Assembly (NCBI GenBank): GCA_020346225.1
Contig: CP070777.1
Coordinates: 2,037,632-2,095,003 of the forward strand
DNA: 57,372 bases
Origin: Candidatus Zixiibacteriota bacterium
GTDB taxonomy: Bacteria; Zixibacteria; MSB-5A5; GN15; FEB-12
Direction of reading: 5' to 3'
Part shown: one piece after another, positions 45,178-49,407 of the stretch
How positions within the stretch are numbered: the stretch's first letter is position 1
How the letters are laid out: each line of letters starts with the position of its first letter
Made by a program: the position numbers and the translations under genes
The notes under the pieces: model-generated
Database searches by the model: none
The model's input: only the letters and a program-made list of their open reading frames with translations
What the model was told of the DNA's origin: nothing

Positions 45178-45999
45178 TCAGTACGACTCGTCCGATGACG
45201 GAAACTTCTTATCTCTGACGTCCTTGATATAGTTCCTGACGGCGTCCAGGATGACAGGGGAGAGGTTGGCGTATTCACGCAGGAACTTGGGCTTGAAGCC
45301 CTCCTCTCGCAGACCCAGCATGTCGTTGATGACCAGCACTTGACCGTCGCACTCGACCCCCGCCCCGATTCCGATGGTGGCTGCGGTACCCAGGGCCCCG
45401 GTAATCTCGGCCGCAATGCCGGCTTCGACCAGCTCCAGAACCATCGAAAAACAGCCCGCCTCTTCAAGGGCCAGGGCCGATTCCATCAGGTAATCACGGG
45501 ATTTCTTACGTCGCCCCTGAACCTTGGGCCCGCCGAAGCGGTGGATCGACTGTGGTGTCAGGCCGATGTGACCCATGACCGGAATGCCGCACTCAATCAC
45601 GCGCTTGACGGTCGGTGCCATTTCCATCCCTCCCTCTATCTTTACCGCCGTCGCCCCTCCCTCCTTGAGGAACCGGCCGGCGTTGAGAATGGCCGTTTCT
45701 GCCGATGGCTGGAAAGAAAGAAAGGGCATGTCGGCCACCACCAGTGCCCTGTGGGTACCTCTGGCCACCGCCGCCGTGTGGGCGACCATGGTGTCCATTG
45801 TGATCGGCAGAGTGGAACCGTGGCCGTGAATCACGTTGCTGGCCGAATCACCGACCAGAATGCAATCGATACCGGCCTGATCCAGAAGCCTGGCGGTGAA
45901 ATAGTCATAGGCGGTCAGAACCGTTATCTTCTCCCCCTTGGCCTTTTGTTTGATAATCGTTTGTACGGTGACCTTCTTTTTCTCTCGTGGCGAATACAT
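45178..45999 (-). CDS. panB: 3-methyl-2-oxobutanoate hydroxymethyltransferase
   Basis: A 273-residue enzyme that makes ketopantoate from alpha-ketoisovalerate and methylenetetrahydrofolate, the first committed step of pantothenate synthesis. Signatures: ITVLTAYDYFTARLLDQAGIDCILVGDSASNVIHG, MPFLSFQ, VKIEGG, and HIGLTPQSIHRFGG. The ATG has GAGGGA nearby and lies five bases after the deoxynucleoside kinase stop. It is the last gene of the folate-pantothenate operon, consistent with its use of a folate cofactor. panC and panD are not in the window. Confidence 0.97.
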   Translation of the reverse strand: MYSPREKKKVTVQTIIKQKAKGEKITVLTAYDYFTARLLDQAGIDCILVGDSASNVIHGHGSTLPITMDTMVAHTAAVARGTHRALVVADMPFLSFQPSAETAILNAGRFLKEGGATAVKIEGGMEMAPTVKRVIECGIPVMGHIGLTPQSIHRFGGPKVQGRRKKSRDYLMESALALEEAGCFSMVLELVEAGIAAEITGALGTAATIGIGAGVECDGQVLVINDMLGLREEGFKPKFLREYANLSPVILDAVRNYIKDVRDKKFPSSDESY

Positions 46000-46004
46000 G
46001 ACGG

Positions 46005-46667
46005 CTATTCCCTCGCCAGATTGCCGGCCGGAGCATAATACTTCTTGCCGGAAACGGGTTTGCCGAGCTGCTCGATCAGGTCGTCGAAATGCTCGGGGTT
46101 ATGCACGAAATCGATCTCGTCGGTCTTGACCACCAAAAGCGGCGTTTCGTTATAATTGAAAAAGTAATAGTCATAAGCTTTGTTCAGCACCTCGATGTAA
46201 TCGTAGTCGATTGATTTCTCGAACGAAAAATCGCGATGACGGATCCGCTGCAGCAGAACCGGTGTCGACGCCTGAAGGTATATTGTCAGGTCCGGTTTGG
46301 GAACGTCGAGCGAAAGCGCCGGCGCAATCTTGTTGTACAGGGTAAGCTCCCGGTCGGTGAGGGTGACCGACGCGAAAATGGAATCCTTGGCGAAAAGGTA
46401 GTCGGACACTATTCTCTGGGCAAACAGGTCCCTGACCATGAGTTGCTGTTGCTGCTGGAACCTGGAAATGAGAAAATACAACTGGCACGAAAACGCATAC
46501 CGCTTGCGGTTCTTGTAGAAATCCACAAGGAAAGGATTCTCCAGAACTTCTTCGGCGATCAGCTCGGAGTCGAGGCGCTCGGCCAGCATGCGGGCAAAGG
46601 TGGTTTTGCCGACGCCGATGACCCCCTCAACGGCTATGTATTTGGGTTCAGATATTTCGGGCGACAT
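46005..46667 (-). CDS. Deoxynucleoside kinase family protein
   Basis: A 220-residue cytoplasmic kinase that phosphorylates deoxynucleosides using ATP. The P-loop is GVIGVGKTTFAR. The lid arginines are in RIRHRDFSFE, and EEVLENPFLVDFYKNRKRYAFSCQLYFL matches the deoxyguanosine/deoxycytidine kinase group. Start is the ATG at 46667 (AAGGACC upstream), which overlaps folK by 20 bases; the longer frame from 46712 is unlikely. Its stop is TAG. It is located between folK and panB in the operon. Confidence 0.92.
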   Translation of the reverse strand: MSPEISEPKYIAVEGVIGVGKTTFARMLAERLDSELIAEEVLENPFLVDFYKNRKRYAFSCQLYFLISRFQQQQQLMVRDLFAQRIVSDYLFAKDSIFASVTLTDRELTLYNKIAPALSLDVPKPDLTIYLQASTPVLLQRIRHRDFSFEKSIDYDYIEVLNKAYDYYFFNYNETPLLVVKTDEIDFVHNPEHFDDLIEQLGKPVSGKKYYAPAGNLARE

Positions 46668-47157
46668 GGTCCTTGTACAGAAGTACCTCTCGTTTGTGAC
46701 TTTCCTTGACATAGCTGGCGATCGGTTTGCCGCTGACCGGGTGGGTCAGGTCCGGTGTGATCTGAATCAGCGGCAGCATGGCAAAGGCCCGCTTCAGCAA
46801 CTGCGGGTGAGGAATCTCGAGATTCTCGGTTTTCACCACGCGGTCGCCGAAAAGCAGGATATCCAGATCGATTACTCTCGGTTTTTTACGTCCCTTGTCG
46901 GTCCGACCCATGTCCTTCTCTAACCGCTCCAGGGCCGCCAGAAGTTCGTGCGGGGAATATCCGTAATCTGTCATCACCGCCTGGTTCATGAAAGACGGGT
47001 TTTCTCCTTCCATCTCCTGCGCCGCCGATACGTAGATGCCGGAGGTCGCCACGATCTCCAGGCCGGGCAACGCGGCCAACCCGTCTATGGCCGTCAAAAG
47101 ATTTTTCTCCCGGTCGCCCACGTTGGAGCCGAGCAGAATGTATGCGGTTTCAGGCAC
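46648..47157 (-). CDS. folK: 2-amino-4-hydroxy-6-hydroxymethyldihydropteridine diphosphokinase
   Basis: A 169-residue folate pathway enzyme that transfers pyrophosphate from ATP to hydroxymethyl-dihydropterin. Family signatures are plain: ILLGSNVGDREKNL at the N-terminus, SGIYVSAAQEME, and the ATP-site segment KGRKKPRVIDLDILLFGD with IPHPQLLKRAF. The GTG start is supported by AAAGGGG and by an 8-base overlap with the end of folB. Second folate gene in the operon. Confidence 0.97.
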   Translation of the reverse strand: MPETAYILLGSNVGDREKNLLTAIDGLAALPGLEIVATSGIYVSAAQEMEGENPSFMNQAVMTDYGYSPHELLAALERLEKDMGRTDKGRKKPRVIDLDILLFGDRVVKTENLEIPHPQLLKRAFAMLPLIQITPDLTHPVSGKPIASYVKESHKREVLLYKDHVARNI

Positions 47158-47563
47158 GGTCGTCCCCTTTCTGCCGTTGGCGGCCTATGAGTTTTGAGGT
47201 GTCGCTCTGATACCGGGTCAGCTCCACCTCGATCGATTCTATCTGTCCCGGAATCGGCGGGTTCATTTTCCTGACCCGCAGCGTTACCCGGTACACGGGA
47301 AACCGCTCGAGTATTCTTGTCGCCAGGTGACCGGCCAGCCCCTCCAGCAGGGAAAATGCCCGACCCTCTACGGTTTCCCTAATAACGTCATACGCCTGCC
47401 GATAGTCAACGGTGTCGGCCAACTGGTCGCTTTGACCGGCCTCGGCCAGGTCAACCTCCAGTTCGCAGTCGACCTCAAAAACGCGCCCGGTTTCTTTCTC
47501 GGCAGCCGTCGCCCCATGATAGCCGTAAAACGATAAGCCGCTCAGGCGAATTACGTCTTTCAT
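47150..47563 (-). CDS. folB: Dihydroneopterin aldolase
   Basis: A 137-residue enzyme that cleaves dihydroneopterin to hydroxymethyl-dihydropterin and glycolaldehyde. Matches: IRLSGLSFYGYHGATAAEKETGRVFEVDCEL at the N-terminus, TVDYRQAYDVIRE, and SLLEGLAGHLATRILE. The catalytic Lys and Glu of the family fit the PIPGQIESIEVEL ending region. It starts in a 4-base ATGA overlap with the stop of the preceding aminotransferase gene, and is itself overlapped by folK, showing coupled translation. Confidence 0.96.
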   Translation of the reverse strand: MKDVIRLSGLSFYGYHGATAAEKETGRVFEVDCELEVDLAEAGQSDQLADTVDYRQAYDVIRETVEGRAFSLLEGLAGHLATRILERFPVYRVTLRVRKMNPPIPGQIESIEVELTRYQSDTSKLIGRQRQKGDDRA

Positions 47564-48741
47564 GACTCGTCGCCCACCTTAAGAATTCTTCCTCGCTGCC
47601 GTATTCTCTCGCAGGCCGCCCGGTAGTCCTCGGGTTCGGCCGTCAGCGAAAGTCTTAAAAATCCCTCGCCGCTGTCACCGAAGCTGGTCCCCGGTGCCAC
47701 CAGGACACGCATGCGCCGGTAGAGGATACCGGCCTGGGTTCGGGCGCTCCGGCGACCGGCTATCTGCGCCCAGACAAAAGGCACCGTGTCGTATCCCGAT
47801 TTTTCCAGCGCGAGAAGATTCAGCAGCCCGGCCACTTCCGCTTCGCACCGGTGCATTCTGTCGCGGGCCAGCTTCAATCCGTCGCCGGGATACATGCGTA
47901 GCGCCCGAAGAGCTAAATCGACATAGTATTCGGGAATGAAGGCGGGCATGAGACCGGACACCGCTTCCAGCCCGCTGATGACATCCCGGTTCCCGGCTAC
48001 GAAGCCAAACGGCAACGGTGGCAACCCCAGCAAATAGGAGAAAGAGTATACTTCCGCCCCGACTTTTTTCCCGCCGTCCACGGCCAGAAGCGAGGTGGGC
48101 GTTCGCGCATCGACAGACTGGTAGGCGGCATCGTTTATGATGACGGTATTCTCGCGGGCCGCCATCCATACCAGGTCTCCCGTCTCCTTCTCGTTCAAGG
48201 CGGCTCCGGTGGGGTTGTGGGGGCTGTTGAGAAACAGCAATCGTGCCACCCGGCCCAGGCGGGTATTGATGCGCTCGAAATCCGGACGCCAACCGGTTTT
48301 GGGCGTTACCGAATAATGAACCGGCTCGCCGCCGCAGGCCGCTGTCACCTTCTTGTAAAGCGGCACCCCCAGTTCCGGCACAAAAACGATATCTCCGTTA
48401 TCGATAAAGGCCAGCCCGATGTTCAGTATCAGAGAGGAAATCCCCGCCCCTATGAATATCTCGCGGTCGCCCGAAATCTTGACCTGGCGGTGGTCGGAAA
48501 ACCACTGGCTCAGCGCCTCCTTCAGTTCATCCAGCTTGGCACGGTCGGCCGGGGCGAATTGTTTTTCGCCGGGAACACTGCCGCTATCCATCGATACCGG
48601 CCACCTGAAACGGGCCAGATCGAGCAGCCTGGTCTTCTTGAGGGGGGAAGGGCGCGGTTTCTCCCGTGTAAACGAGAAGATATCCGGGGCCATTTTGTAC
48701 AGACGGTTGGCTTTATCGATAACGGCTTTCTTTATAACCAT
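47560..48741 (-). CDS. Aminotransferase class I/II-like protein lacking the PLP lysine
   Basis: A 393-residue fold-type I protein. Most family landmarks survive: FIGAGISSLILNIGLAF, NSPHNPTGAALNEKE and IINDAAYQSV, and the substrate-carboxylate Arg in FLRLSLT. The lysine motif, however, reads SFSYLLGLPPLPFG: the Schiff-base Lys is Tyr236 (TAT, 48036-48034) and the following Arg is Pro. The reading frame is intact and the rest is conserved, so this is a real, altered protein rather than a decayed one. Its role is unknown, perhaps non-enzymatic or regulatory. It is the second gene of the operon, between a class II aldolase and folB. Confidence 0.85.
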   Translation of the reverse strand: MVIKKAVIDKANRLYKMAPDIFSFTREKPRPSPLKKTRLLDLARFRWPVSMDSGSVPGEKQFAPADRAKLDELKEALSQWFSDHRQVKISGDREIFIGAGISSLILNIGLAFIDNGDIVFVPELGVPLYKKVTAACGGEPVHYSVTPKTGWRPDFERINTRLGRVARLLFLNSPHNPTGAALNEKETGDLVWMAARENTVIINDAAYQSVDARTPTSLLAVDGGKKVGAEVYSFSYLLGLPPLPFGFVAGNRDVISGLEAVSGLMPAFIPEYYVDLALRALRMYPGDGLKLARDRMHRCEAEVAGLLNLLALEKSGYDTVPFVWAQIAGRRSARTQAGILYRRMRVLVAPGTSFGDSGEGFLRLSLTAEPEDYRAACERIRQRGRILKVGDES

Positions 48742-48747
48742 AATCCA

Positions 48748-49407
48748 TCAGCCTTTGCTGAAACGGTCCGTCGCCATGTCTCGCCTTATTCGCCGCAGCC
48801 GCTCGCAATCCTCTTTGGGAATGCGGTTGACGTTGCCCAGTTGCCGGGCCAGGTGGACTATTCGGGCACAGTGCTCAACCGTTTCGTGCAAAAGGAGCGC
48901 CTGACGCAGGCTGCCGCCGATCGTCAGAAGACCGTGATTGCTCAGAAGGAACGCCTCGTGTAAATCTATAAACGGCTCCAGCGACCTTGGCACCGACGTG
49001 GTGCCCGGCGGAGCGTACTCCGCCAACGGTACCGGCCCCACGGCCATCGCCCCTTCCGGGAGGATGTCGTCCGCCAGGCCCATACCGGCCACCGCGAATG
49101 ACGTGCTGTAGGGGGCGTGCGAGTGAATACAGGCTTTCACGTCCGGTCGCCGCCGGTAAACCAGAAGGTGCATGGGCAACTCAGACGATGCTGCGTGCTG
49201 CCCTTCAAGGTGCTTGCCCCTCGCGTCAACGACGACCATATCGTCATCCCTGAGGTCCCCCTTGGGCAACCCCGAAGGCGTGACCATGATCGTCCCGTCA
49301 TCGAGTCGAGCCGATATGTTCCCTTCCAGGCCGGCCATAAAGCCGCGGATGTACAGTCGCCTTCCGGCGCCTGCAATAGCCTTTGCCATCGCAGCGTCAA
49401 TTGACAT
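48748..49407 (-). CDS. Class II aldolase/adducin family protein
   Basis: A 219-residue cytoplasmic enzyme of the L-fuculose/L-ribulose-phosphate type. It would carry out a zinc-dependent aldol cleavage or epimerisation of a phosphorylated sugar. Visible zinc ligands are in ACIHSHAPYS and LLSNHGLLTIG, and the catalytic-type acid region is SSELPMHLLVY. The N-terminal GRRLYIRGFMAGLEGNISARL and TPSGLPKGDL are typical. It is the first gene of the minus-strand folate/pantothenate operon and ends six bases before the aminotransferase start. The substrate cannot be named. Confidence 0.9.
   Translation of the reverse strand: MSIDAAMAKAIAGAGRRLYIRGFMAGLEGNISARLDDGTIMVTPSGLPKGDLRDDDMVVVDARGKHLEGQHAASSELPMHLLVYRRRPDVKACIHSHAPYSTSFAVAGMGLADDILPEGAMAVGPVPLAEYAPPGTTSVPRSLEPFIDLHEAFLLSNHGLLTIGGSLRQALLLHETVEHCARIVHLARQLGNVNRIPKEDCERLRRIRRDMATDRFSKG

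Follow-up and report, generated by a model that had tools for sequence, protein, structure and literature searches.

The locus and its altered cofactor site

The window is a 57,372-nucleotide stretch of DNA from a Candidatus Zixiibacteriota genome (one contig, 95.6% complete), and it carries a folate operon in which the gene of an aminotransferase-like protein is embedded. The features of the locus are as follows:

45178..45999, minus strand: panB, ketopantoate hydroxymethyltransferase
46005..46712, minus strand: deoxynucleoside kinase (dNK)
46648..47157, minus strand: folK, HPPK
47150..47563, minus strand: folB, dihydroneopterin aldolase, directly downstream in 70/73 loci
47560..47563, minus strand: ATGA overlap of the aminotransferase-like stop and the folB start
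47560..48741, minus strand: protein of the aminotransferase fold, probably DapL-derived and lacking the PLP lysine, 393 aa, ATG start
47653..47655, minus strand: Arg363, present in all complete copies
48004..48045, minus strand: degenerate PLP motif SFSYLLGLPPLPFG, residues 233-246 (canonical SLSKTYNMTGWRIG)
48034..48036, minus strand: Tyr236 codon, TAT
48130..48132, minus strand: Asp204, retained (94% of the clade)
48205..48216, minus strand: NPTG, residues 176-179, retained
48430..48444, minus strand: residues 100-104, GISSL, in place of the GSKEG phosphate-binding loop of DapL, which is lost
48748..49407, minus strand: class II aldolase (ald2), upstream neighbour in 58/70 loci

The fold-type I motif of the 393-aa protein was found to be VYSFSYLLGLPPLPFGFVAGN, in which Tyr236 aligns to the Schiff-base lysine of BacF (6l1l) and of 2o1b, and Pro244 occupies the position of the phosphate-binding arginine of GxR. 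A preliminary description had read the lysine as Tyr236 and the adjacent arginine as proline, and both substitutions are borne out by the codon and the alignments; likewise, the NPTG motif, the Asp/Tyr pair and the carboxylate arginine that it listed as retained are all in place (residues 176-179, Asp204 with Tyr207, and Arg363), and the gene is intact and overlaps folB by 4 bases, as was stated. It overlooked that the PLP phosphate site is mostly lost, and the ring-stacking residue with it. Residue roles are presumed here from aspartate aminotransferase and DapL: Asp204 is taken to be the contact of the pyridine nitrogen, Arg363 the arginine for the substrate carboxylate, Tyr126 the ring-stacking residue, Tyr64 a phosphate contact from the partner subunit, and the Arg244 position that of the PLP phosphate-binding arginine.

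The protein scores 119.4 bits on the PF00155 profile of fold-type I aminotransferases (curated cut-off, 19.7), and it lacks the Schiff-base lysine of such enzymes, which is present in 1 of 88 clade relatives. The earlier argument that no internal aldimine can form without this lysine is supported, and, judged from the residues, catalysis through a PLP aldimine is very unlikely. AF2 predicted a confident aminotransferase fold (pLDDT 91.5, pTM 0.90), and the best PDB matches to the model were BacF (TM about 0.84) and several DapL entries. BacF, the bacilysin aminotransferase (6l1l/6l1n/6l1o), is the closest solved structure in both sequence and fold; however, identity is 24%, and BacF possesses the lysine and a cofactor site. 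The DapL matches include the Arabidopsis K270N and K270Q variants in complex with amino acids, which indicate that loss of the lysine alone need not empty the site; unlike these variants, the window protein has also lost the phosphate contacts.

Lysine loss across Zixibacteria and probable descent from DapL

The phylum is represented in the genome collection by one class of 132 genomes, and orthologues with E < 1e-50 were found in 57 of the 60 relatives searched. None of the family- or order-level homologues read has a lysine at site 236. Within the family the residue is Tyr, and the order's other families have Phe, Leu or Tyr; elsewhere in the class Thr, Phe, His, Leu, Asp and further residues occur, with Lys once; over 88 class sequences the counts are Y40, F19, T10, L6 and H4, followed by others. 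Thus, of the Tyr/Pro pair first described, the loss of lysine and arginine proved to be general, whereas Tyr is typical only of the nearest families.

Residue frequencies in the 88 class sequences were set against 26 DapL and DapL-like proteins. Most residues of the PLP site are gone (Lys236 1%, Arg244 2%, Ser101 1%, Lys102 8%, Tyr126 16%, Ser235 39%, Gln274 0%, and Tyr64 nearly absent), and others are retained (Asn176 93%, Pro177 100%, Asp204 94%, Glu230 99%, Trp324 94%, and Arg363 in about 100%, that is, every complete copy); residue 207 is Tyr in 69% and Phe in 25%. From the alignment, the phosphate cup appears mostly lost, with the Asn/Asp/Arg group remaining. A replacement lysine was sought and no column reached 85% Lys over the clade, the best being K5, K4 and K10, all of them N-terminal. 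The columns conserved in the clade are nearly all common to DapL, and the exceptions, such as Pro321 and His175, look structural.

Asp204 is replaced by Arg or Asn in five clade members. Four copies of one family (L211, L218, L220 and L223) have Arg in place of this pyridine-binding Asp (CHR motif) and retain Arg363, and, by sequence, they would be the copies in which the cofactor site has decayed furthest. At the old catalytic site, one copy has Lys (AAA; L195:4992-6206) and a second copy from the same genus has Thr (ACA; L188:5001-6194). Since L195, the sole copy with lysine, also lacks the arginine and is nested beside L188, its lysine may possibly be a one-base reversion as readily as a retention or the mark of a late loss.

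The best profile matches of the window protein are the LL-DAP aminotransferase models TIGR03540 and NF006756 (160-167 bits against cut-offs of 593 and 507; 159.9 bits against the NCBIfam equivalog cut-off of 593.25). DapL, the LL-diaminopimelate aminotransferase of lysine biosynthesis, is therefore its best-scoring named family, and the two have the same fold and an N-terminal KADRLxxxPP motif; however, the window protein falls far below the cut-offs and has lost the lysine, the arginine, the phosphate loop, the stacking Tyr and GxGxPD, so that the phosphate and ring contacts of DapL (Ser101, Lys102, Tyr126, Arg244) are missing. The 88 Zixibacteria homologues and one further Zixiibacteriota record, L092, form one clade (FastTree support 1.0; IQ-TREE aLRT 100, from a fast search with 73 sequences), which is nested among DapL-like proteins with its exact sister group among them not resolved by the trees. 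The lysine-less state is widespread and old, and within the DapL group it probably marks a new branch of pseudoenzymes. L092 branches first within the clade in both FastTree and IQ-TREE; its protein has Met for Lys, keeps GWRIG and scores 430 bits on the DapL profile, its gene precedes folB-folK-dNK-panB, and the Met step it represents comes from a single record, one MAG contig.

The gene order has a counterpart outside the phylum: in 14 loci of Nitrospirae, Deltaproteobacteria, Omnitrophota, Binatia and others, a lysine-containing DapL-like gene immediately precedes folK, on the same strand (L081, L082, L083, L085, L087, L090, L096, L097, L098, L105, L107, L108, L111 and L125), and the two of these proteins that were scored (655 and 613 bits) exceed the DapL equivalog cut-off. 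Because canonical DapL directly precedes folK in several other phyla, much as the window gene precedes folB and folK, the place of the lysine-less gene in the folate operon was probably inherited from a dapL-folK order. No explanation for this recurrent lysine/folate pairing, and no description of a dapL-folK operon, was found in the open-access literature. A plausible course is that a DapL in a dapL-folB-folK neighbourhood lost its lysine first and its arginine later; the Schiff-base lysine would have gone early in Zixibacteria evolution, an event that would fit the loss of dapA and dapB, and the stacking residue and the site for the PLP phosphate would have followed.

Gene order, the DAP pathway and selection

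The preliminary description had proposed a fixed place beside folB, and this holds among homologues: folB is next in 70 of 73 loci, folK and dNK are downstream in 64 of 66, and panB in 63. Three genomes (G060, and the single-contig G114 and G115) lack the gene and possess ald2, folB, folK, dNK and panB; the gene is valuable yet replaceable. An obligate subunit of FolB or FolK is ruled out as a general rule by these natural deletions, since the operon is kept without the gene. In families f15 and f16 (L208, L210, L213, L214, L243 and L244) dNK is relocated to before folB, and in L243 and L244 the aminotransferase-like gene is gone from its usual place. That folK clusters with folB and with panB is established, and PanB side chemistry has been offered as the reason, in an account that mentions no aminotransferase (PMC4814558). 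The link to pterin or one-carbon metabolism suggested earlier is possible; however, because the place was probably inherited, linkage to folB is weak evidence of such a role, and the inherited order weakens a folate link of the protein in general.

DapA and DapB lead to tetrahydrodipicolinate, the substrate of DapL (PMC3102117). Neither dapA nor dapB was detected in the source genome by HMM, a method that may miss very divergent enzymes, and no protein of that genome reaches the DapL cut-off; among 45 near-complete relatives, DapB is above cut-off in one. With dapA and dapB undetected, DapL chemistry would be left without a substrate. The same genome, which has no detectable dapA or dapB, encodes a DapF at equivalog level (G000:C1:1665834-1666679, L238:7834-8679; 225.6 bits against 114.65), and the gene adjoins that of a MocR/PdxR-type aminotransferase-like protein. 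This DapF may be an amino-acid racemase, since in Fusobacterium, which has no DAP route, a protein annotated as DapF is a racemase of histidine (PMC11602996).

In close pairs with unsaturated dS, the dN/dS of the lysine-less gene was 0.05-0.10, a range like that of folB, folK, panB and the aldolase (dNK was left out in two pairs, where values were >1 or undefined owing to frame slips at gaps), and open frames are present in dozens of genera. The lysine-less gene is under strong purifying selection, and the family thus combines loss of the catalytic residue with purifying selection, as expected of a pseudoenzyme.

Possible roles of the lysine-less protein

The missing residue, taken alone, could reflect an artefact of sequencing or assembly, or a mutation confined to this copy of an otherwise active enzyme; however, this reading is refuted by the same state in every family- and order-level homologue read and by a single lysine among the 88 sequences of the class, and its probability is practically nil. 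A functionless relic awaiting deletion would fit the missing DAP route and the lineages that have deleted the gene, but it is largely refuted by the low dN/dS and the many open frames and is very improbable. The pseudogene reading is ruled out by the state of the homologues together with dN/dS.

Two readings would retain catalysis. In the NDP-sugar 3-dehydratases E1, ColD and SpnQ, which have the aminotransferase fold, a His replaces the PLP lysine (PMC8987622), and by this same-fold precedent the window protein might be a lysine-independent PLP or PMP enzyme with a non-covalent cofactor and another residue as acid/base. The retained Asp204, Asn176 and Arg363 are consistent with this, as are the Arabidopsis DapL Lys270 mutants solved with amino acids. 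However, the dehydratases have a fixed catalytic His with PMP and belong to another subfamily, whereas here the replacement varies (Tyr, often Phe, Leu or Thr, and others, with His in 4 of 88), Arg244, Ser101, Lys102 and the stacking Tyr126 are mostly gone, and five members have lost Asp204; because residue 236 is not fixed, a ColD-like substitute catalyst is disfavoured, and the reading as a whole is quite improbable. An enzyme free of cofactor, with a new activity in a reshaped pocket and possibly acting on a pterin or on glycolaldehyde released by FolB, would agree with the strong purifying selection, the conserved polar residues and the fixed place between aldolase and FolB; it is nevertheless unlikely, as there is no newly conserved set of catalytic-type residues, the conserved columns being nearly all shared with DapL, and three lineages manage without the gene.

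The explanation that we somewhat favour is that a DapL-derived pseudoenzyme has been kept as a non-catalytic partner or a ligand sensor. Its status as a pseudoenzyme is well supported, and the residues lost suggest that it probably does not bind PLP stably; a partner, a ligand and a role are put forward conditionally, with a non-catalytic regulator or partner being the somewhat likelier outcome. Such a protein would be co-produced with FolB by translational coupling in the source genome and would keep its fold and an Asn-Asp-Arg pocket, in which Arg363 and Asn176 would hold a carboxylate ligand, although conservation of Arg363, Asp204 and Asn176 could be structural. Through the ligand pocket, or simply through its surface, it would modulate one of the enzymes encoded in the folate operon, with FolB as the first candidate. 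That its target is specifically a folate-operon enzyme is a tentative proposal, and that the phylum-wide cofactor-free family senses a ligand and acts allosterically, as a partner, on bacterial folate synthesis is rather doubtful. A precedent of working, though not of fold, is the TSB-like protein of eudicots, in which a dead paralogue of a PLP enzyme has been retained and activates TSA allosterically (PMC12727527); it has a different PLP fold and an identified partner, TSA, whereas the partner of the window protein is putative.

A search of the open-access literature, with subscription papers outside its scope, returned no description of a lysine-less family of aminotransferases, and PADLOC and E. 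coli searches gave no match, which is uninformative. To our knowledge, documented cases of bacterial PLP enzymes that have become pseudoenzymes are rare. An operon-fixed pseudoenzyme with a likely parent in DapL, a Met intermediate and natural losses makes the fate of a dead transaminase testable; if the proposed role is true, a pseudo-transaminase would control a vitamin pathway, possibly giving folate synthesis a new point of control.

The neighbouring ald2 (48748-49407) retains the HSH and NHG motifs expected in an active zinc aldolase. FolB releases glycolaldehyde, and aldolases of the ald2 type can condense glycolaldehyde with DHAP; ald2 is conceivable as a scavenger of glycolaldehyde.
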